Positions 8,164 to 20,776 of a DNA stretch of 20,776 nucleotides are shown one piece after another; the stretch's first letter is position 1; each line of letters starts with the position of its first letter. This DNA is from a virus. Both the position numbers and the translations under genes were made by a program. The DNA is taken from the IMG/VR virus record IMGVR_UViG_3300005563_000491, positions 1 to 20,776 of that record; one strand, given 5' to 3'. The notes beneath the pieces were generated by a model that did not search any database, was not told the origin of the DNA, and worked only from the letters and a program-made list of their open reading frames with translations.

Positions 8164-8240
8164 TGGCAACCCCGGCTGAATTCGAATCAGCAACCTTCGG
8201 AATCAAAATCCGACGCTCTAACCAGTTGAGCTACGGGGCT
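8164..8240 (-). tRNA. tRNA-Gln (anticodon TTG)
   Basis: A complete 77-nt cloverleaf folds by eye. The acceptor arm is AGCCCCG/CGGGGTT (with one G-T pair), the D stem GCTC/GAGC, the anticodon stem TCGGA/TCCGA with loop TTTTGAT, and the T stem GCTGA/TCAGC with loop TTCGAAT. The discriminator base is G and the 3' CCA is encoded. The anticodon TTG reads CAA and, by wobble, CAG. The 5' ten bases overlap the end of the upstream coding region. It lies within the minus-strand gene chain, so it must be cut from a longer transcript by host RNases P and E/Z. Confidence 0.95.
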
Positions 8241-8584
8241 TTACAAGACTTCTTGGCAAAGTCACGGACATACGTGTTTGAGTAGTATCCGTCAAGCCAA
8301 GGACGGACTATTTGATTGTACACAAGGGTTGAATGGTAAGGGAAAAGATAATTACTTTCACGTTCAAAGGTGAACGTGCGTTTTCCATTACCTCGTTCAT
8401 AGAGGTGGAACCAAGCATTAACCTGACGGTTGATTCTCTTGTTGAAAGCCCATGCTGTAACAACAGCCACATGCGTCCATTGTCGCTTGGCATATCTGCG
8501 TCTGCGCCAAGCACGCCATCGGCCCAATGCCACAGCCCACCACGGGGCTTTGAACTCTTTCAACTTCTGAATGTGATCAGTCAT
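8231..8584 (-). CDS. Hypothetical basic 117-aa protein
   Basis: This Trp/Arg-rich protein begins MTDHIQKLKEFKAPWW and contains RWRAWRRRRYAKRQW. Its C-terminal half includes VYNQIVRPWLDGYYSN, a 'VxPWLxGxY' pattern found in some phage hypotheticals. An AAGGG SD precedes the ATG, and the gene overlaps the previous one by 8 nt. Its TAG stop lies inside the tRNA-Gln gene. Maturation of the tRNA would therefore cut this mRNA at its very end. Confidence 0.7.
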   Translation of the reverse strand: MTDHIQKLKEFKAPWWAVALGRWRAWRRRRYAKRQWTHVAVVTAWAFNKRINRQVNAWFHLYERGNGKRTFTFERESNYLFPYHSTLVYNQIVRPWLDGYYSNTYVRDFAKKSCKAP

Positions 8585-13503: not shown

Positions 13504-13650
13504 TTATTTCATGAGTTTGTAAGGCACCGCCTCATGATCCGACTCAAGGCACGGCACCCATTTGTTGAGGACTTTGGACCACCGCATCCACATGATGGGT
13601 GGCGGCGCAGTCTTCTTAACGACGGGTGCGTCGTCTTGTTCATCAGCCAT
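13504..13650 (-). CDS. Hypothetical 48-aa protein
   Basis: The start is ATG 13650, set by TAGGAGGAGAAACA directly upstream; the longer frame runs through the leader. The product reads MADEQDDAPVVKKTAPPPIM then WMRWSKVLNKWVPCLES, acidic then Trp-rich. No family is recognised. It is preceded by a full copy of the repeated leader. Confidence 0.75.
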   Translation of the reverse strand: MADEQDDAPVVKKTAPPPIMWMRWSKVLNKWVPCLESDHEAVPYKLMK

Positions 13651-13721
13651 TGTTTCTCCTCCTATTTGAAGCGTAAGTGCTTCTCGAAAGGCAGGGGATG
13701 AGCCCTGCCTTTGAAGCTGCA
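13651..13721 (-). promoter_or_regulatory. Repeated leader, copy 1
   Basis: Reading the minus strand after the upstream stop: a 10-bp hairpin AAAGGCAGGG/CCCTGCCTTT (13687-13712), then GAAGC-ACTTAC-GCTTC (13668-13683), then ATAGGAGGAGAAACA and ATG. It has the same order and nearly the same length as the other copies. Confidence 0.85.
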
Positions 13722-13988
13722 CTAACCTTTCAGCTTCTTGCGACCTTCAGCGGTCAGGGGCAGTGAACTCTTGCCCATGGCCACAGCTGCCGCTGCCACA
13801 GTAGCGAACTGCGGCCTGCGTGTCTTCCCCTTGAACCAATTGCGCAAGGTGCCAGCAGTAGGGCCGCCAGCTTCCGCAATTTGTCCATCACTCATCTCTG
13901 CGTCGCCTTTGATGGTACGCAGCACATCAATGATGGGGTCCTTCTCAGTAAAGGGGTAAGCCTTATATCTCAAAAAACCTCTAGCCAA
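13722..13988 (-). CDS. HTH protein with TTG start, 88 aa
   Basis: The start is TTG 13988, giving MARGFLRYKAYPFTEKDPII. AAAGGAG lies seven bases before it, and it begins one base after the upstream TAA. The ATGs further up have no SD. The N-terminus matches a phage family that starts 'MARxxLxYKxYPFxEKDPxID'. The middle, MSDGQIAEAGGPTAGTLRNW then FKGKTRRPQFATVAA, is a helix-turn-helix. It is probably a phage DNA-binding regulator. Confidence 0.83.
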   Translation of the reverse strand: MARGFLRYKAYPFTEKDPIIDVLRTIKGDAEMSDGQIAEAGGPTAGTLRNWFKGKTRRPQFATVAAAAVAMGKSSLPLTAEGRKKLKG

Positions 13989-13989
13989 G

Positions 13990-14346
13990 TTACTTCTCCT
14001 TTCCACCTGTGACGACATACTCGCCACGGTTCTTGGTTGCCTTGATCAGGCCGTTATCGCGCAGCACTTTTGAGAAGTAGCTGAACGAATTCTCCACACC
14101 ACCTGCCTTGATGATGTCTGCCTTGAGGTTGGCTGACGTGTAGATGGAACCGTTCGGGAGTTTGTGAACCAAATCCCAAACACGTTCCCACGTCGCTATG
14201 CCAGATGAGGCTTGTTTCACCTTGCCGCCTTTCACTTCAGCATTCACCACGGGCTGCGGGGGCTCCATGTTGAGTACGAGACCAGACAAGGCATGGAGTA
14301 CCTTGGAAAGGTTCTTGTCATCAACAATGCACGCAATTCTGAACAT
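13990..14346 (-). CDS. Hypothetical 118-aa phage protein
   Basis: The start is ATG 14346, set by AACAGGAGGAGAAAC. It begins MFRIACIVDDKNLSKVLHAL, then has a variable Gly/Lys linker and a C-terminal half (WERVWDLVHKLPNGSIYTSA, then SYFSKVLRDNGLIKATKNRG) that looks like a winged helix. The N-terminal 'MFRIxCxxDDKxLxxVLxALxGL' is a pattern seen in phage hypotheticals. Its last codons carry the SD for the TTG-started gene. Confidence 0.78.
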   Translation of the reverse strand: MFRIACIVDDKNLSKVLHALSGLVLNMEPPQPVVNAEVKGGKVKQASSGIATWERVWDLVHKLPNGSIYTSANLKADIIKAGGVENSFSYFSKVLRDNGLIKATKNRGEYVVTGGKEK

Positions 14347-14413
14347 GTTTCTCCTCCTGTTGTGAAGCATGAGTGCTTCTTGCTGCCCCTAGATGAGGGG
14401 CAGTGTAGAAACA
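14347..14413 (-). promoter_or_regulatory. Repeated leader, copy 2
   Basis: TGTTTCT follows the upstream stop, then hairpin CTGCCCCT/AGGGGCAG (14383-14403), then GAAGC-ACTCAT-GCTTC (14364-14379), then AACAGGAGGAGAAAC and ATG. It is 67 nt long. Confidence 0.87.
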
Positions 14414-14839
14414 CTAATCATCTGATTGAAAATCAACCGACTCACTGTAGTACCCGTTCGAGGTACCGTGCCACCGGATGTCAACACTGCCTTTTATGGT
14501 TCTGAACTTGTAGAACGTCCAAGTCTCACTCTCTTCCCCATACTCAGAAGTATGAGGCGGCTTTGACCCCTGTAAGAACTTGGCCTTCAGCAAGACCTCA
14601 CCGTGTGGGCCGGTGAATGGGTGGTCTTTGTTTGTGACTTCCTCAGCCAATAAGATGGGCGTACCCACCAAGTCTTGCAAATCACCACAAACGTCTTCGA
14701 TGCGAACGCTTTCACAACAGTTCTGATGGTGCAGCATCTTGAATTTGCTGCCGTCCGCACATTCAAAATAGATTTCATCCTCAGCATCAGATACCGTTAT
14801 TTTGGTCAAGGTCTTGCCTTCAAGAATGTTTACTTTCAC
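14414..14839 (-). CDS. DUF7448-like protein with an inserted GPHG segment
   Basis: The start is GTG 14839, directly after AACAGGAGGAGAAA. The 141-aa product matches a phage family with 'HHQNCCESVRIEDVCGDL', 'LVGTPILLAEE' and a C-terminal 'TWTFYKFRTIKGSVDIRW' then 'GYYSESVDF'. Between these lies HPFTGPHGEVLLKAKFLQGS, a stretch I do not expect in the family and which resembles the GPHG motif of the 8-11 kb cluster. The family name is from memory; the function is unknown. Confidence 0.8.
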   Translation of the reverse strand: MKVNILEGKTLTKITVSDAEDEIYFECADGSKFKMLHHQNCCESVRIEDVCGDLQDLVGTPILLAEEVTNKDHPFTGPHGEVLLKAKFLQGSKPPHTSEYGEESETWTFYKFRTIKGSVDIRWHGTSNGYYSESVDFQSDD

Positions 14840-14902
14840 TTTCTCCTCCTGTTGTTTCAATTGCTGACCACGCCAGCCCGTAGGCTGGCGGACGTCAACA
14901 AT
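14840..14902 (-). promoter_or_regulatory. Leader copy 3, double-stem variant with UACG loop
   Basis: This leader keeps AACAGGAGGAGAAA but lacks the GAAGC hairpin. Instead, ATTGTTGAC pairs with GTCAGCAAT (14894-14902 with 14860-14868, one G-U). Nested inside is GCCAGCC-TACG-GGCTGGC, a C(UNCG)G tetraloop. The outer stem begins at the stop codon of the VWA gene. The same structure follows the MoxR gene. Confidence 0.85.
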
Positions 14903-16176
14903 CACCCATAGGTCTCACTCACGTGGATGGGATCGCCGAACGGCGGGTTCTGGCTCAGTTGTTCGTAACGCTGGTGATGATTGTAGACTGCCCACATGAC
15001 CGGGCAGCCGGGGTCCTCACCAAAGTCATGAACTTCCAAGTCAGTCAGGTAGATGACACAGCTGGCGTCAGGATGGTTTTCCTTCAGCCACCTGAACGAG
15101 TCACTGAAGGCGGTTCCACCTCCGTAATACCGCCCGCAGGTAACAAGGTCACCTTGGTTGTACTCGTCCGCATGCTGCACCTTGGTATCAGCATAGGCAA
15201 TCACGAGGCAGTCAGCCGTCCCCTGATCCAGCGCACCTGCCGCCTCACTGACCATTTCCCGCGCCAATTCAAACTGAATAGACCCGGAAATATCAATGAA
15301 GCAAACCAGCTTGTGCATGCGGTCTGAGACCAAGCCGGGCAGCAACGTACCCACCGAAGCGCTCCGTCGGCTAATCCGTGCCCAACTGTAGTCCTTGGTC
15401 AGGGATTGGTCCACGAAACGCCGCGTCAGTTCACGCCAGCTTACCTTGGGCTTCTTCAGTTGCTGGATGAGGCCCTGCAACGAGCCGGGCACATTGCCAG
15501 CATTCTGTGCGGCAGCAACAGCCACCGCAGCCCGCACCTGCTGTTCCCACGTTGTCTTGACAGCGTCCTTTTTGACGGTGTCGCCCGGTGCATCAAGCAC
15601 CTGACCACAACCACCGGGATCGGCACCGACAAGGACAACAGGGCTCTTGCCTTCACCTGTGCCGTACTTCTTTTGTGCTTCCTTGGCACGCTTCATGAGG
15701 TCGTCATAGACTTCCTCAGTGGTCATGCCCTTGTATTTGGGATCGTACATGTACCCCTTGGTCTTGCATGTGGGGTCGAAGCACATGTCCGCACTGATGG
15801 GTTGCCCCGGCAGCTTGAAGCCGCTGGAGATCAGATCAGCATTGATAACGAAGTCACCGGCCACGTTGAATAGCATGGGATCACGGTTGCCCCGCCGTGC
15901 AAAGTGCTGGAAGCAACAGTGCATGACTTCGTGTGCCACAACACCCTCACACTCACGATCGTCAATTCTGTGAGTGAATTCGGTGTGGTAGAACATGCTG
16001 ACCCCATCTACTGCCATGGTGGTTACCTCACCACCAAACAGATCATCCGCTTCCACCAAGCGCAACTGCATGGCTAGGAAACCAAAGAACCCGTTGCTGA
16101 CCAGCAGATTGGTTCTGGCACGGATGATTTTATCCCGTGCCGCCCTATCCTTTACCTTAGTTCCGGTAGTAATCAT
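14902..16176 (-). CDS. VWA-like protein with HExxH domain (DUF2201 type)
   Basis: This 424-aa protein has an N-terminal putative metallopeptidase-like domain with HEVMHCCFQHFARRGNRDP (HExxH at 82-86) and NVAGDFVIN. A linker (150-200) follows, then a C-terminal von Willebrand A domain with the MIDAS motif DISGS (295-299), the GGGT loop, and TDLE as the third metal site. Such proteins partner MoxR AAA+ ATPases, as in RavA-ViaA or NorQ-NorD, and phages carry the pair. The MoxR gene is two genes upstream on this strand. The target of the pair in this phage is unknown. Confidence 0.9.
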   Translation of the reverse strand: MITTGTKVKDRAARDKIIRARTNLLVSNGFFGFLAMQLRLVEADDLFGGEVTTMAVDGVSMFYHTEFTHRIDDRECEGVVAHEVMHCCFQHFARRGNRDPMLFNVAGDFVINADLISSGFKLPGQPISADMCFDPTCKTKGYMYDPKYKGMTTEEVYDDLMKRAKEAQKKYGTGEGKSPVVLVGADPGGCGQVLDAPGDTVKKDAVKTTWEQQVRAAVAVAAAQNAGNVPGSLQGLIQQLKKPKVSWRELTRRFVDQSLTKDYSWARISRRSASVGTLLPGLVSDRMHKLVCFIDISGSIQFELAREMVSEAAGALDQGTADCLVIAYADTKVQHADEYNQGDLVTCGRYYGGGTAFSDSFRWLKENHPDASCVIYLTDLEVHDFGEDPGCPVMWAVYNHHQRYEQLSQNPPFGDPIHVSETYG

Positions 16177-16243
16177 TTTCTCCTCCTGTTGAAGCTGTTA
16201 AATGCTTCTCACTAGGCTGTGACCCAGCCTAGGACAGAAACAT
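16177..16243 (-). promoter_or_regulatory. Repeated leader, copy 4
   Basis: TGTTTCTGTCC is followed by CTAGGCTG/CAGCCTAG (16212-16232), then GAAGC/GCTTC with an eight-base loop (16191-16208), then AACAGGAGGAGAAA and ATG. It is 67 nt long and nearly identical to copy 9. Confidence 0.88.
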
Positions 16244-16531
16244 TCACAAGTCTGTGGTTTTGGTTTCCTTGGCCCATTTGACAAATGCTCCTGAATCGCA
16301 AAAGCGATTTGGGTCCCTTCTGCACAAGGCCATTATGATGAACACTTCCAACGCTCTGGCATACTCAGGGCGCATCACATAAGTGATGATTTTGTCGAAG
16401 TTCTCCGGTGTGGCCTTCTCAAGAATGTCTTGAGCAAGGAAGGCTTGCATTGCCGGTTCAGGGTCAATTTTGGCTGACTCTGGGTTTTCCATTATCTCAT
16501 TGAATGTGGTTCTCGGTATGATGACTGTCAT
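16244..16531 (-). CDS. Stand-alone paralogue of the MoxR C-terminal region
   Basis: This 95-aa protein ends ENFDKIITYVMRPEYARALE and later CDSGAFVKWAKETKT. The MoxR ATPase ends DNFAQIYKYIMRDDFGADFG and CETPTFIQWAKKNKT. The shared pattern NFxxIxxYxMR...C....F..WAK..KT at the same spacing shows common origin. It has no ATP-binding motifs. It may compete with or extend the ATPase in its complex, or bind the same partner. It sits between the VWA gene and the 114-aa gene. Confidence 0.8.
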   Translation of the reverse strand: MTVIIPRTTFNEIMENPESAKIDPEPAMQAFLAQDILEKATPENFDKIITYVMRPEYARALEVFIIMALCRRDPNRFCDSGAFVKWAKETKTTDL

Positions 16532-16756
16532 TTTCTCCTCCTGTTGAAGCTATAGTGCTTCACCACTGAGATGAGACCCCGGCTAGAGGTGGGTCAAACA
16601 TAGCCGGGGCCGATGTGCTACGTTCATAAGACTCGAGCTACACCGGGTCGAGCTACACCGGGTAGCTAGGCCAATGTTCGCGGTTCTGGGTTTGCCCAGA
16701 GGCTTGCATTGAACTACCTATGAATCGCCTTACGCACACATCTCAGTGAGGCTGCA
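16532..16756 (-). promoter_or_regulatory. Repeated leader, copy 5, with extended upstream region
   Basis: The proximal part is a standard copy: CCCCGGCTA/TAGCCGGGG hairpin (16577-16609), GAAGC-ACTATA-GCTTC (16546-16561), AACAGGAGGAGAAA, ATG. Upstream of it are about 145 extra bases without a gene. They include two head-to-tail 15-bp units tcgagctacaccggg (16633-16662) and a small tctggg/cccaga hairpin. A promoter could lie here, but I see no convincing one. Confidence 0.75.
16633..16662. repeat. Perfect 15-bp tandem repeat
   Basis: Two identical units tcgagctacaccggg follow each other without a gap in the extended leader. They are not within a gene. They could be paired binding sites or a slippage product. 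Confidence 0.9.
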
Positions 16757-17101
16757 CTACCTCAGTTCGTAGGTCACGCGTTCATCAGTCACCGCCTCAT
16801 TATACTTGGCGTGGACCTTGGGTTGCTCCTCTTTAAGGAGCGCTTGGTTGAGGCGCGTGGTCGGCACCAGCTTGAGAACTGCTTTGAACAGTTCACCAAG
16901 GCGTGAACCTTCCTTGTGCTTCAGTTTGGTCTTGATCATTTCCTTGACATGATCATCGATGGTCTTGCAGGCTTTGGCCACCGGCTTCAGCCGCGCCGCC
17001 ACGTCGATGAGATCAGCTTCCGGCAGCGTATCAAGGTCCTTGACCACGTCCTCAAGAATCTCACCAAGCATCTTTAGGTCTTTCTTAAGTGCGGGTTTCA
17101 T
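16757..17101 (-). CDS. Hypothetical helical 114-aa protein
   Basis: The first half (LKKDLKMLGEILEDVVKDLD, then VAARLKPVAKACKTIDDHVK) is strongly helical. The second half, EGSRLGELFKAVLKLVPTTR then LNQALLKEEQPKVHAKYNEA and ERVTYELR, resembles a small phage family with an 'EGxxFxAxLxxVxxxRLxxxxLKxExPxxxAKY' pattern. Function unknown. The start follows AACAGGAGGAGTAA. It is transcribed away from the plus-strand XRE gene. Confidence 0.78.
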   Translation of the reverse strand: MKPALKKDLKMLGEILEDVVKDLDTLPEADLIDVAARLKPVAKACKTIDDHVKEMIKTKLKHKEGSRLGELFKAVLKLVPTTRLNQALLKEEQPKVHAKYNEAVTDERVTYELR

Positions 17102-17160
17102 TTACTCCTCCTGTTTGAGCAAAGCGCTCATCGAGGCGCAAAGTATCTTGCGCCTTGAAA
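17102..17160 (-). promoter_or_regulatory. Repeated leader, copy 6 (variant)
   Basis: Hairpin AGGCGCAA/TTGCGCCT (17134-17155), then TGAGC-GCTTT-GCTCA (17116-17130) where other copies have GAAGC/GCTTC, then AACAGGAGGAGTAA and ATG. The changed arms still pair. The distal end overlaps the proposed promoter of the divergent regulator. Confidence 0.8.
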
Positions 17161-17182
17161 AGCATTTGCGTATGATTAAATT
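17155..17182 (+). promoter_or_regulatory. Possible sigma70 promoter for the XRE gene
   Basis: TTGAAA (17155-17160) and TAAATT (17177-17182) are 16 bases apart, 24 bases before the start of the plus-strand regulator. TATGAT lies directly upstream as an alternative -10. The match is moderate, and direction fits the only plus-strand gene. Confidence 0.4.
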
Positions 17183-17205
17183 GTGGATAGGCAGGGTCCA
17201 AACGC

Positions 17206-17427
17206 ATGACACATAAACCAAGCACCAACTCAAAAGAACTTGTTGAACAGTTGCGTAGACTGCGTAAGGAAAGCGGGCACAATCAACACACGTTTGCTGA
17301 GATGACCGGCTATTGCCGAACGCAAATTGCGCTTTATGAAACCGGGAAGCGCACCCCTAACCTTATCGTAGCCACTGATTTCGCCGAAGCCCTTGGCTAT
17401 GAACTTGTTCTGAAACTCAAAGATTAG
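17206..17427 (+). CDS. XRE/Cro-type HTH regulator on the opposite strand
   Basis: This 73-aa protein begins MTHKPSTNSKELVEQLRRLR and carries a lambda-repressor-like HTH: ESGHNQHTFAEMTGYCRTQI, then ALYETGKRTPNLIVATDFAE. The recognition helix is near CRTQIALYE. It is the only plus-strand gene I accept, divergent from the 114-aa gene and convergent with MoxR. The SD (AGGG, about 10 bases up) is weak. It is probably a repressor acting on the shared intergenic region, or a regulator gained by transfer. Confidence 0.85.
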   Translation: MTHKPSTNSKELVEQLRRLRKESGHNQHTFAEMTGYCRTQIALYETGKRTPNLIVATDFAEALGYELVLKLKD

Positions 17428-17429
17428 CT

Positions 17430-17487
17430 CCCCCAGCACAATTGCTGACCACTCAGGCACCCGGAGGTGCCTGAGGACGTCAACAAT
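17430..17487. terminator. Double-stem structure between convergent genes
   Basis: On the minus strand ATTGTTGAC pairs with GTCAGCAAT, and inside it CTCAGGCACC-TCCG-GGTGCCTGAG forms a 10-bp hairpin with a C(UNCG)G tetraloop. The outer stem starts at the MoxR stop codon, as in the copy after the VWA gene. It lies between the ends of MoxR and the plus-strand regulator, so termination or 3'-end protection in both directions is likely, although no T-tract is present. Confidence 0.65.
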
Positions 17488-18521
17488 CAGATGCGCAGCG
17501 TTTTGTTTTTCTTGGCCCACTGTATGAAGGTGGGCGTCTCACACAGGCTGGCTTCGCGCTTGGCAGCATCCAGCACAACCACGGTGCCGAAGTCAGCACC
17601 GAAGTCATCCCGCATGATGTACTTGTAGATCTGCGCGAAGTTGTCCCGGTTGGCGTACTTCGCCAACATGGCGCTCAGCGCATAGCGTGAGGCCGGCTCG
17701 TCCGGGATCATGGTACGCATGGGGTCACGGACGATATCATCAAAGTCAGGCAGTTCAACGGCCTTGAAGTAGGTTTCCACTTCAGCCGCAGCGCCCTCGC
17801 CCACGTTGGCCGCCACCAGCTTGAACCGCATGTCCGGAGATGCGTCAAACACCTTCGAAGCACGCGCCCAAGAACGCGGTGACGGGAAGGCCAACAGATC
17901 AGCGCCTTCCATGCTGTGGATCAGGTTGGGCCTGAACTTCATGAACCCGATGAGCATCGGATCGATGTCATTCAGGTTGGCCCAGTTGCACCAGCACTCG
18001 GCGTCCGCCCTGATGTGGATGTGTGCAAAGCGGTTCGCCAGCGCGGTGCTGACGCTTTGCGCAGCTGCCCGGTCTTCCCTGCGGTTGCCCGCAGCGACCG
18101 GCCACCAGCCCTTGGGCAGATGATAGTCACCGATCTGCCGGTCCAAGATGACTCGGTAGATGCAGCTTTGCAGCTGACGGCTGGCGTCACTGAGTTCATC
18201 GAACGCAATGATGCCGGTTTTGCCGTCACGCTTTTCCTCAGGCCAGAACGTCGCCCTCAGCCACACAGCCACCCGGCGTTCCAGATCAGGAACAGGGATG
18301 CCCGTGAGGTCTTCAGGCAACATGGTGCCCACGCGGATATCAATGAAACCGGACTTGTCCTCAGCGGCAAGCTGCCGCATGACGTCCGATTTGCCAATGC
18401 CGGGGGCACTGTGCATGTACAGCGGAATGTCCTTTTTACGAAAGATGCGCGCCATTTCCTTGGCGGTTTCGATCGTCTCAGTTCGGACTTCCGTTGCACC
18501 CACGGTTGCTTGAGTAGACAT
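17487..18521 (-). CDS. MoxR-type AAA+ ATPase
   Basis: The start is ATG 18521 (MSTQATVGATEVRTETIETA), set by AACAGGAGGAGAAAACT. The 344-aa protein has Walker A SAPGIGKSD (38-46), Walker B GIIAFDELSDAS (103-114), sensor 1 VAAGNRRED (142-150) and an Arg finger region near ALANRFAHI. These identify the MoxR branch of AAA+ ATPases, which work with VWA proteins as chaperones or metal-cofactor insertion machines. The C-terminal about 55 residues recur as a separate gene at 16244-16531. Confidence 0.92.
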   Translation of the reverse strand: MSTQATVGATEVRTETIETAKEMARIFRKKDIPLYMHSAPGIGKSDVMRQLAAEDKSGFIDIRVGTMLPEDLTGIPVPDLERRVAVWLRATFWPEEKRDGKTGIIAFDELSDASRQLQSCIYRVILDRQIGDYHLPKGWWPVAAGNRREDRAAAQSVSTALANRFAHIHIRADAECWCNWANLNDIDPMLIGFMKFRPNLIHSMEGADLLAFPSPRSWARASKVFDASPDMRFKLVAANVGEGAAAEVETYFKAVELPDFDDIVRDPMRTMIPDEPASRYALSAMLAKYANRDNFAQIYKYIMRDDFGADFGTVVVLDAAKREASLCETPTFIQWAKKNKTLRI

Positions 18522-18600
18522 AGTTTTCTCCTCCTGTTTGCAATGTGAAGCGTAAATGCTTCTCACTGCCCTATACGCTGATAGGGCAGGACAGAAACAT
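18522..18600 (-). promoter_or_regulatory. Repeated leader, copy 7
   Basis: TGTTTCTGTC, then CTGCCCTAT/ATAGGGCAG (18566-18589), then GAAGC-ATTTAC-GCTTC (18547-18562), a short spacer, AACAGGAGGAGAAAACT and ATG. It is 79 nt, slightly longer than most copies. Confidence 0.87.
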
Positions 18601-18966
18601 TCAGTATGGTTTGAAGGCCCGCAATTCAGCTATCTCGATGACCTTCTTGGCGCGATCCAAGGCCGCCTTGAACGTGAAGTCCTGATTGAGTTGAGGGTAC
18701 AGCTTCCCGCTCATGCCATACGCAATTTTTGCGATGGCTTTTGGCAGTTGTAGCTCCACAGGCGGTGCGTCTTCATGCATGTATCTGAGCAGGGTCGTTT
18801 CGCCTTGGAATGAGACCTCGACAGAGCCACGGGCCTTGAGATATTGGCAAACCAGACAATTGCCTGAAGAGTGGGCGTTGTAGTCAGTTGCCCCCTCGTC
18901 AATGCTTTGCTGAAGCCAATCACGGAAGTCCTTCAGGTCAGTGATTGATGGTTCTATAGCTCTCAT
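18601..18966 (-). CDS. Hypothetical 121-aa phage protein
   Basis: This protein begins MRAIEPSITDLKDFRDWLQQ and contains HSSGNCLVCQYLKARG, a CxxC pattern common in a small phage family of unknown function, often near MoxR/VWA genes. The C-terminal part (KAIAKIAYGMSGKLYPQLNQ) is helical. The SD is ACACAGGAGGAGAAT. Two Cys alone are not enough for a zinc site without a partner. Confidence 0.76.
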   Translation of the reverse strand: MRAIEPSITDLKDFRDWLQQSIDEGATDYNAHSSGNCLVCQYLKARGSVEVSFQGETTLLRYMHEDAPPVELQLPKAIAKIAYGMSGKLYPQLNQDFTFKAALDRAKKVIEIAELRAFKPY

Positions 18967-19035
18967 ATTCTCCTCCTGTGTTGATGCGTAAGTGCATCTT
19001 TGGGCGCTGGTTTGACCCAGCGCCCCGTAGATGAA
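18967..19035 (-). promoter_or_regulatory. Repeated leader, copy 8 (compensatory variant)
   Basis: GGGCGCTGG/CCAGCGCCC hairpin (19002-19025), then GATGC-ACTTAC-GCATC (18983-18998), then ACACAGGAGGAGAAT and ATG. The small stem differs from the consensus at both arms (A to T and T to A) and still pairs, while its loop is unchanged. Confidence 0.88.
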
Positions 19036-19227
19036 CTACAACTTTTCATCAGTTGCCTTGAACTTTGGCCTGAATTTAATTCCGGCCTCAGTCAGAGTAG
19101 TTTGGGCAAGTAAGACACAAGCTTCAAAATAGTTTCTCCCTTCCCATTCATCACACTCAGCCTCGTGCTCGGCTATCGCCTTCAAGGCCTTAACAATAGC
19201 CGTCTCAGCTTTCTTTGGCGTGGTCAT
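19036..19227 (-). CDS. Hypothetical 63-aa protein
   Basis: This is a helical protein: MTTPKKAETAIVKALKAIAE, then HEAECDEWEGRNYFEACVLL. The SD GTGAGGT precedes the ATG. Its start lies 8 nt past the stop of the DUF3150-like gene, and it lacks the repeated leader, so it probably depends on that gene's translation. No family is recognised. Confidence 0.72.
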   Translation of the reverse strand: MTTPKKAETAIVKALKAIAEHEAECDEWEGRNYFEACVLLAQTTLTEAGIKFRPKFKATDEKL

Positions 19228-19234
19228 GCCAACC

Positions 19235-20119
19235 TCACTTCATGTACTTCTGAACCTTGGCCAGAAGCTTGTCAGCCTTGCTGATGGTCGCCTGCCGCAC
19301 CTTGGTATCGGCACGAAGTATCTCAGGCGAGTGTTCCACCAGATCAGCCTTCATGGCCTTGGCCAGTTCAGCGATGCGCGGATCGTTGGTGACGTTCAGC
19401 GCAGGCAGCAAGTCAGCCAGATCATTGATGTCGTAGACCACAGAGTCACGGATGACCCCGTCGGCCCGCTTGCCGTCAGCCTTGGGCTGATAGCCGCGCA
19501 GCCTCTCCGACATTTTCTTCACCACTTCAGCAACGCGTTGAAACACGTCATTCATGGCGTTCTCAAGGCGCTGGTTGCTGCGCCGTTCGATGTCCTTGAT
19601 GATCGCTTTCATGCTTTCATCACTGACCTTGGCGCGGAAGTCGGCGGCCTCAGGCATGGGCTTGATTTCCACGTCGAAATCAAACTTCTCCTTGAGGTCG
19701 TCATTGCTGGGGTAGTCGTCAATATTGAACATGTCACCCAGCCGCACCTTAGCGTCCTTGATGTAGTCGTCGCGGCTGGTGAGGAACTCCTTGACGGCGT
19801 CCTCAGCCTTGCGCTTGCACTCCTTCATCTTTTGGACGTAGGTCAGGTAGCCAACCGTGGCCAGCACCCGCGTGCCGTCATCCTCCCACGGCAGCGTCAG
19901 GGTCCGGTGGGCCGTGCGCGCCGCTGAGTGGGCAGATGAAACGCCTTCAAGGAAGGACGCCGCCACCAGCTTCTTGTTGTAGCGCCCAGCCTTCTTGTCA
20001 GCCTTGAAGTCTTGATTGACCGTATCAGTCACTTCCCGGTCAATGGCCGACCCGGCCCAGCTTGAGATGTGCAGGCTGGCCAGCATGGCGCGTTCAGATA
20101 GTTTTCCAGTATCACTCAT
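19235..20119 (-). CDS. DUF3150-like phage protein, 294 aa
   Basis: The start is ATG 20119 (MSDTGKLSERAMLASLHISS), set by AACAGGAGGAGAAACC. The sequence WAGSAIDREVTDTVNQDF, AGRYNKKLVAASFLEGVSSA, LPWEDDGTRVLATVGYLTYV and a long charged helical region (100-230) match a phage protein family often found beside MoxR and VWA genes; I believe it is DUF3150 but cannot check. It is likely a third partner of that chaperone system. No catalytic motif is visible. Confidence 0.78.
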   Translation of the reverse strand: MSDTGKLSERAMLASLHISSWAGSAIDREVTDTVNQDFKADKKAGRYNKKLVAASFLEGVSSAHSAARTAHRTLTLPWEDDGTRVLATVGYLTYVQKMKECKRKAEDAVKEFLTSRDDYIKDAKVRLGDMFNIDDYPSNDDLKEKFDFDVEIKPMPEAADFRAKVSDESMKAIIKDIERRSNQRLENAMNDVFQRVAEVVKKMSERLRGYQPKADGKRADGVIRDSVVYDINDLADLLPALNVTNDPRIAELAKAMKADLVEHSPEILRADTKVRQATISKADKLLAKVQKYMK

Positions 20120-20186
20120 GGTTTCTCCTCCTGTTGAAGCGTAAGTGCTTCTCACTAGGCTGCTTGCACAGCCTAGGACAGAAACA
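20120..20186 (-). promoter_or_regulatory. Repeated leader, copy 9
   Basis: TGTTTCTGTCC, then CTAGGCTG/CAGCCTAG (20155-20176) with a six-base loop, then GAAGC-ACTTAC-GCTTC (20136-20151), then AACAGGAGGAGAAACC and ATG. It is 67 nt long and nearly identical to copy 4 except in the large loop. Confidence 0.9.
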
Positions 20187-20720
20187 CTACAGGCCAGCCT
20201 TGCGGAGGCGCTGTCCCAGTTTGGTCATTGCCTTGTGGAAAGGCTCAGGGTTGTCCCTGTCATAGTCAGGGATATGAGCCTCAAGCTTGCCAAGCTTTTC
20301 TTCAAGCTCTGGCTTGTTATCCAAGCTACTCCATCCATTGATGGATGTGTAAGCATTTACGACGTGCCCTATACGCAGTGAGTCGATGGCGTCCAGTTGT
20401 AGTTCGTTTTTGCCGAAATTGCTGGGACTGAGGGATTTAGTGAAGTCAGCCTTCAATGAGAAGGCCATGACCGCACCCGCCGCACATAGGACGCAAGCAG
20501 GCTGACGCTTGATCTCCATGCCACCCCTCGTTGAGCATATCACTTCAGTGGGCTCATGGTACGAGTTGTCCATTTCAAAAATGTACTTCTCAGGAAGCTT
20601 TTCAGCCTTCCTGATATCCTGCAATGCCAGTCTCACCAGCGCCGACAGCTTCTTGGGCAGCACTGACAGCTTGCGTGTGGCCTTCTTTTTGACCGCACGC
20701 TTTTTAACTTTCTTAACCAT
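20187..20720 (-). CDS. Hypothetical 177-aa phage protein
   Basis: The start is ATG 20720 (MVKKVKKRAVKKKATRKLSV), set by GCAGGAGGAGAAT. The N-terminal 25 residues are very basic. The middle contains QPACVLCAAGAVMAFSLKAD, a CxxC pattern found in small phage proteins of unknown role, and the C-terminus is charged. The basic start suggests nucleic-acid binding. Confidence 0.75.
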   Translation of the reverse strand: MVKKVKKRAVKKKATRKLSVLPKKLSALVRLALQDIRKAEKLPEKYIFEMDNSYHEPTEVICSTRGGMEIKRQPACVLCAAGAVMAFSLKADFTKSLSPSNFGKNELQLDAIDSLRIGHVVNAYTSINGWSSLDNKPELEEKLGKLEAHIPDYDRDNPEPFHKAMTKLGQRLRKAGL

Positions 20721-20776
20721 ATTCTCCTCCTGCAATTGAAGCATGATTGCTTCTCACTACAGCCCGCAGGCTGTAG
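20721..20776 (-). promoter_or_regulatory. Repeated leader, copy 10 (cut by window edge)
   Basis: CTACAGCC-TGCG-GGCTGTAG (20757-20776) has a C(UNCG)G tetraloop and ends exactly at the window edge. GAAGC-AATCAT-GCTTC (20738-20753), then TTGCAGGAGGAGAAT and ATG follow. The upstream stop codon lies outside the window. Confidence 0.85.

Follow-up and report, generated by a model that had tools for sequence, protein, structure and literature searches.

The repeated leader of the virus record IMGVR_UViG_3300005563_000491 is, we are highly confident, an RNA with two alternative folds, built from three strands spread over the interval from one gene's stop codon to the next gene's start. The stretch analysed here (the window) is a 20,776-base IMG/VR virus fragment that gave no near match among 50,697 phage records. 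A covariance model finds ten leaders in it, all on the minus strand and each directly 5' of a start codon. An earlier note, made from the sequence alone, had listed nine copies, and all nine were recovered on the minus strand; a tenth, at 14843-14906 before a gene with a GTG start at 14839, had been missed. The 5-base-pair (bp) hairpin, the gene-specific hairpin and the AACAGGAGGAGAAA motif match that earlier description, as do the mostly six-base small loops; in relatives this loop is mostly 3-6 nucleotides (nt). As a full architecture the two-hairpin layout is incomplete, since it overlooks a third strand at the upstream stop codon.

An alignment of 50 leader copies, chosen partly for pairing, reveals the full layout: stop codon and ATGTTTCT, GTC, a gene-specific stem and loop, TG, AGAAGCAT, a loop, GCTTC, AACAGGAGGAG and the start codon. 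Strand 2, made up of AGAAGCAT and the small-hairpin loop, has two complementary partners: strand 1 (ATGTTTCT, lengthened by the stop codon) and strand 3 (GCTTC). Within strand 2, GAAGC forms the 5' half of the 5-bp hairpin and also pairs with the stop-codon strand (TAATGTTTCT/AGAAGCATTA). Pairing of strands 1 and 2 (fold A) gives a hairpin of 16-23 bp (median 19) with an asymmetric internal loop, mostly 3/2 nt, that encloses the gene-specific stem; pairing of strands 2 and 3 just 5' of the Shine-Dalgarno sequence (fold B) gives two tandem hairpins. Because the same bases are used by both, the long helix and the small hairpin are mutually exclusive, and the alignment columns that they share (49-53) show covariation for each. 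Selection acts on both helices. The internal-loop letters GTC/TG are conserved in the main class of elements, and small loops range from 3 to 8 nt, mostly 4-6. Spacing is tight: strand 2 starts a median of 33 nt 5' of the start codon (5-95% range, 29-40), of 71 elements, 52 have the stop codon within 3 nt of the strand 1 5' end and 63 have a stop-to-start distance of 61-82 nt.

Folding predictions place the two forms close together. Unconstrained RNAalifold chooses the two-hairpin form on the alignment; folded singly, 59 of 74 elements favour the long hairpin, with fold A predicted to be more stable than fold B by a median of 1.8 kcal/mol. The predicted probability of the small hairpin rises from 0.18 to 0.75 once strand 1 is masked, and the Shine-Dalgarno sequence has an unpaired probability of 0.53 in fold A and 0.44 in fold B. 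The best-preserved full leader of the window illustrates both folds (predicted at -30.2 kcal/mol for A and -28.9 for B). It spans 20125-20189 on the minus strand (model E-value 1.7e-18), from the stop codon of the gene at 20187-20723 to the Shine-Dalgarno sequence of the gene at 19235-20119, and comprises strand 1 (AGTGTTTCT, 20188-20180), the inner stem (20176-20155), strand 2 (AGAAGCACT, 20152-20144), strand 3 (GCTTC, 20140-20136) and the Shine-Dalgarno sequence (AGGAGGAG, 20132-20125).

That this architecture arose by chance is excluded. Across the 50 aligned copies, 93.7% of cells in the outer helix pair, compared with 80.5% after shuffling and 43-56% when the strands are slid, and 66 cells have both sides changed, against 19 in the control. 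The small hairpin pairs in 99.2% of cells (15 double changes versus 1.2) and the inner stem in 96.7% (155 versus 46). Covariation beyond chance, the absence of which the earlier note had named as a ground for refutation, is thus present in all three helices. It extends to the bases of the stop codon itself (columns 6-8), which covary with the loop of the small hairpin (columns 55-57). Because the aligned copies had been chosen partly for pairing, we also examined 97 genes selected solely for a AGGAGGAG Shine-Dalgarno sequence. A small hairpin with 5 bp or more, no further than 14 nt from that sequence, precedes 90% of them, but only 13% of dinucleotide-shuffled upstream regions and 21% of genes with another GGAGG; both helices occur in 73% of the 97 genes, versus 1.5% of dinucleotide shuffles and 6.7% of the other GGAGG genes. 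When strand 1 is exchanged among elements, the mean outer score drops from 17.2 to 11.9 (standard deviation (sd) 0.4); for the 38 elements with a strand 2 other than GAAGC the drop is from 15.5 to 10.9 (sd 0.65). On the sense strand, one position of the outer helix is U.G in 38 of the 50 copies, and the inner stem has 17 G-U combinations versus one A-C; the pairing therefore takes place in the sense RNA.

Related IMG/VR contigs were gathered by leader-derived pattern scans and by searches with the proteins of the gene block in which the leaders lie. Eleven of them hold about 120 model matches, one per gene, a few of which are mirror images or partial; by contig, the model gives 16 in G001 (a 64.8-kb contig), 23 in G002, 18 in G003, 22 in G005, 7 in G006, 9 in G007, 7 in G008, 8 in G009, 6 in G012 and 5 in G016. 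G010, G011, G013 and G014, with one weak match or none each, were left out as members. In most contigs nearly all matches fall within a single block of 10-16 kb of co-oriented genes. The earlier note had also asked whether close relatives carry the elements before the same genes, and they do: orthologous genes retain the leader architecture while the leader sequence changes. A family of proteins of about 290 amino acids has the leader in seven contigs, with GAAGC, GATGC, GATGAAGC or GGTGTGCT as the 5' half of the small hairpin, and an ATPase gene is preceded by it in six. G006 and G007 keep the hairpins with a different Shine-Dalgarno sequence, AGAGGGA, and in G016, whose 290-residue family protein is 45% identical, the scheme is the same with wholly different letters (for example TGAGTGCAGC/GATGTACTCA with GATGTAC..GTGCATC). 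Within one genome, unrelated genes can also have near-identical leaders; those at 36449 and 37302 of G001, for example, are 94% identical. Where the note had left open whether the leader was spread or kept as a unit, its retention at orthologues together with such near-identical copies therefore indicates both.

We propose, tentatively, that the leader is an intercistronic RNA-processing site of the kind found at the R sites of phage T7, a reading to which we assign a probability of roughly 45%. Cutting, the enzyme and stabilisation are all inferred. Fold A would be a double-strand-specific processing site, cut by host RNase III in or near the internal loop. After the cut, the gene-specific stem would stay as a 3'-protecting hairpin on the upstream message, and strand 2, once released, would pair with strand 3, giving the downstream message a 5' hairpin next to an accessible Shine-Dalgarno sequence; it is the predicted rise of the small hairpin on masking strand 1 that leads us to expect this pair of protected ends. 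A long phage transcript would in this way become a set of messages for one gene apiece, with a hairpin at either end. Among the three functions that the earlier note had floated, a processing site that also acts as 5' stabiliser best fits the whole anatomy, and a regulator binding site is a rival. Turnover of sequence with structure kept is as expected for a structure-specific nuclease. The two halves of the element also occur apart where processing predicts. The first genes of the block, which have a long non-coding leader upstream, carry the small hairpin without a good long helix; directly 3' of the window's ATPase gene, at about 17445-17490 on the minus strand, sequence and folding reveal an orphan long hairpin without strand 3 or a Shine-Dalgarno sequence, which faces a convergent plus-strand HTH gene (17206-17427, HTH_3).

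The T7 early leaders, including the RNase III site R1.1, are intercistronic hairpins with two stems around an internal loop, are repeated within one transcript unit and, when folded for comparison, lie at a similar distance from the start (about 26-35 nt before start codons, read by eye). RNase III has been proven to act on R1.1, whose loop is asymmetric at 4/5 nt (PMC6121014). The leaders described here share the asymmetric internal loop between two stems and the short, fixed distance to the start. Unlike the T7 sites, they precede nearly every gene of the block, their lower helix reaches the stop codon, their sequence is unrelated, their internal loop is mostly 3/2 nt and a third strand makes an exclusive small hairpin; cleavage, moreover, is predicted here. 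In T7 R1.1 (L177), the strand beside the RNase III cut (ATTGACC) can refold with a downstream GGTTAAT, a possible precedent for the cut-and-refold step.

Several points weigh against processing. Our folding comparison indicates that the third strand is not general in T7 sites, only R1.1 being able to refold, and RNase III of some hosts prefers longer duplexes (PMC6121014). An RNase III site would not need strand letters (GAAGC) as conserved as these, though recent copying could explain them. Fold A would not survive a ribosome sitting at the stop codon, so heavy upstream translation would oppose cutting. Lastly, the contigs contain no phage-encoded RNase III.

Alternatives to processing could include a switch operated by the ribosome itself, which we regard as unlikely. 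A ribosome ending the upstream gene would cover strand 1, letting strands 2 and 3 pair until its release allowed the long hairpin to re-form, and these folds would make initiation on each gene depend on translation of the gene before it. The stop codon lies in or abuts strand 1 (no more than 3 nt from its 5' end in 52 of the 71) and covaries with the loop of the small hairpin, so a terminating ribosome would be expected to flip the structure; the stop-to-start distance of 61-82 nt in 63 of 71 elements and the near-equal energies of the folds (median difference 1.8 kcal/mol) also suit such a device. Against this, the Shine-Dalgarno sequence is about equally open in both folds, leaving no evident effect on initiation, compact gene packing could by itself place the stop codon there, and the long hairpin at the end of the ATPase gene has no start codon after it. 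Riboswitch- and attenuator-type translational switches likewise have two exclusive helices sharing one strand 5' of the Shine-Dalgarno sequence. The leader has the two exclusive folds of a Shine-Dalgarno-sequestering switch but, unlike such switches, neither fold clearly hides the Shine-Dalgarno sequence, and copies stand before many unrelated genes. Less likely again, in our estimate, is that a phage or host RNA-binding protein (a repressor, activator or stabiliser) has its site in the tandem hairpins or the internal-loop motif and governs the genes of the block as one regulon. The many copies 5' of unrelated genes in one block and the conserved GTC/TG letters of the main class would fit a binding site, but relatives keep the architecture while changing letters, loop and Shine-Dalgarno sequence wholly, and a simple site needs no second, exclusive helix.

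We consider it improbable that the leader is just a strong ribosome-binding site, with hairpins that insulate it and keep it open and an alternative helix that is a by-product. Nearly all copies do have a strong AGGAGGAG with a hairpin a few nucleotides upstream; however, the outer helix covaries independently, also with non-standard strand 2, and genes that lack an adjacent upstream neighbour have a poor outer helix or none. The hairpin itself recalls the 5'-terminal stem-loops that stabilise bacterial mRNA (ompA and papA; Emory et al., 1992, as cited in PMC3997798), which also lie a few nucleotides 5' of the Shine-Dalgarno sequence and can stabilise a message from its 5' end. Unlike those, the leader hairpin would need a cut to stand at a 5' end, and its 5' strand takes part in a second helix as well. 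Very improbable, finally, is an element acting as DNA, either a hairpin promoter like those of N4 or a joint at which gene cassettes recombine and spread. The hairpin of the N4 P2 promoter has the same GAAGC/GCTTC stem, near-identical copies do stand 5' of unrelated genes, and in the window a 95-residue gene and its leader are interposed between a variant leader and the DUF2201 gene. Yet U.G pairs occur where DNA would be mismatched, the small loop varies in length instead of always having 3 nt, G001, G003 and G005 lack any open frame that could encode a giant virion polymerase, and the model's best match in N4 has an E-value of 0.15, with none in At2; copying may also be a consequence rather than the function. 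By analogy alone, the conserved arms around a variable stem recall integron attC-like recombination sites, which are marked by core boxes and an integrase gene.

Other candidates were tried and rejected. A leader peptide starting at an ATG, GTG or TTG beside the stop codon would be in a random frame relative to the main start (21/19/16). Sequestration of the Shine-Dalgarno sequence by strand 3 (CUUC with GGAG) is limited to GAAGC-type elements and has no net effect on accessibility. An N4-type promoter has a DNA stem of 5-7 bp and a 3-nt loop, whereas here loops vary and the long helix contains U.G pairs; the N4 virion RNA polymerase has about 3,500 amino acids, and the largest open frames of G001, G003 and G005, contigs that may be incomplete, have about 930. 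The leaders end in AACAGGAGGAG with no T run, and terminator-like sites are no commoner than in shuffles, so they are not intrinsic terminators; a sigma-70 promoter per gene is not found above shuffles. Searched at curated score with Rfam 15, the window and eight stretches of relatives contain only tRNAs.

The nearest layout among described elements is that of the SAS/ESAS repeats of cluster K mycobacteriophages, which stand at the starts of a subset of non-structural genes, include paired inverted repeats just 5' of a Shine-Dalgarno-like motif and are kept before the same gene families (PMC3203893). The authors of that study found little support for mRNA hairpins (PMC3203893), and a 2025 paper states that the role of SAS/ESAS still needs experimental verification (PMC12699233). 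The leaders differ in several respects: they carry AGGAGGAG or AGAGGGA rather than the 13-bp GGGATAGGAGCCC at the start site; their arms change by compensation, with strong covariation, and pair in RNA, whereas the 17-bp inverted repeats of ESAS keep their sequence; and SAS/ESAS have no described third strand.

The remaining leaders of the window, all on the minus strand, vary in completeness. That of the gene at 20187-20723 (20724-20776; model match 20724-20767, E = 0.0054) loses its upstream part to the contig end and retains the inner stem and small hairpin. In the leader of the gene at 18601-18966 (18970-19041; E = 6.6e-13), GATGC in strand 2 and GCATC in strand 3 are compensated in both helices. 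The AAA ATPase gene at 17487-18521 has its leader at 18528-18605 (E = 7.5e-18), where the TGA stop is the start of the outer helix. The outer helix is imperfect in the leader of the gene at 16757-17101 (17105-17170; E = 3.7e-8), which has a strand 2 of GAGC type, and imperfect and bulged at 13656-13727 (E = 1.0e-9), before a small gene that ends at 13504 and has its ATG at about 13650. The gene for a putative DUF2201 metallopeptidase (PF13203; 14902-16176) has its leader at 16180-16248 (E = 4.2e-17) and the gene at 13990-14346 has its own at 14351-14419 (E = 1.9e-17); the leader that the earlier note had missed, which belongs to a DUF7448 gene (E = 1.5e-12), is predicted to have a strong long hairpin and a weak small one.

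A variant leader (16532-16620, minus strand; partial model match 16535-16571) precedes the gene for a 95-amino-acid protein at 16244-16531. Judged from its sequence, it may be pseudoknotted: TTTGACC in the CCCCGGCTA/TAGCCGGGG loop can pair with GGTGAAG, and the small hairpin then follows. The same variant occurs at 41.8 kb of G001, 21.8 kb of G003 and 75.9 kb of G005, with a conserved loop, GTTTGACCYACCTCTR, inside the stem; here TTTGAC can pair with a downstream GTGAAG, making an H-type pseudoknot possible. In these three contigs it directly precedes the DUF2201 gene, and in the window the 95-residue gene (minus strand), paralogous to the C-terminal ~83 residues of the ATPase (28% identity), sits with its own leader between the two; this gene and its leader therefore look like an inserted cassette. 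Other departures from the usual layout were seen in relatives. At 28388 of G007 (L145, about 8388-8500), an insertion with its own hairpin occupies the small-hairpin loop, and strand 3 (GAGCTTC) is kept before the Shine-Dalgarno sequence. A complete element outside the block (G005 69196-69262, minus strand; L007 1415-1481, plus strand) has no start codon after it and is followed by a conserved sequence, AGGAGGGTTGTGAGCAGGAC.TCCTG..TATGCTCA, with its own inverted repeat; it may be an extended leader or a small RNA. At the head of the block, four relatives share a conserved non-coding leader of ~150 nt (TATCGGTGGTG..GGCAACTAYCGCTT..AAGCGATAGGGAA) with an apparently covarying helix (L131 13700-13910, plus strand; L137 10500-10710, L171 2850-3060 and L143 5400-5640, minus strand). 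An Rfam search with this leader gave no match, and it is possibly another structured RNA.

The contigs come from phages: G005 encodes terminase, portal, DNA polymerase, primase, helicase and DnaB, and its portal is nearest to those of Bradyrhizobium, Rhizobium, Stenotrophomonas and Myxococcus phages (about 31-36% identity). The element is absent from the cultured phages searched (N4, At2, Pokken, Pa2, Mx8, BUCT555, RHph_I3_18, ppBjS10J-1 and phi30-3), a 12.8-kb stretch of Pag-Yong1 gave a single chance-level match, and blastn with the consensus leader returned no full-length match. In bacterial genomes, 80 of 113 pattern hits were scored with the model and lay at or near chance (best, 21 bits). 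Planktothrix phage Pag-Yong1 (L179, OL906435.1) does have a corresponding block, with the ATPase, a VWA-like protein and a relative of a 294-residue protein; in that block a single hairpin, GGTTCAGSCTGAACC, recurs just 3' of several stop codons, possibly as an independent intergenic hairpin system. The DUF2201 gene of G006 (22854-23996, minus strand) contains one in-frame TAG, from sequencing error, a pseudogene or stop-codon reassignment. The window encodes a tRNA-Gln (anticodon TTG; 8164-8240, minus strand), and most relatives have one or two tRNA genes.

We found no Rfam family or paper describing the leader, nor any description of a per-gene connector with two covarying exclusive folds. 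The element is real, its two exclusive folds covary and, of the readings weighed here, it is most probably a refined version of T7-style intercistronic processing, in which cutting of one transcript would be extended to almost every gene of the block and built-in refolding would give each new end a protective hairpin. More broadly, it is possible, though we hold this with less than even confidence, that the leader is a standardised, gene-independent and bistable RNA connector that spans the interval between stop codon and Shine-Dalgarno sequence, is copied between genes and hands control downstream by strand exchange. If so, whether the handover is made by cutting or by a terminating ribosome, a gene inserted with its connector would be expressed on its own within a long transcript. 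Such an intergenic RNA of ~65 nt would be a natural plug-in part that tolerates complete sequence change and makes polycistronic phage genes independent of their neighbours. The leader is also a structural signature by which to recognise a phage lineage known only from metagenomes.

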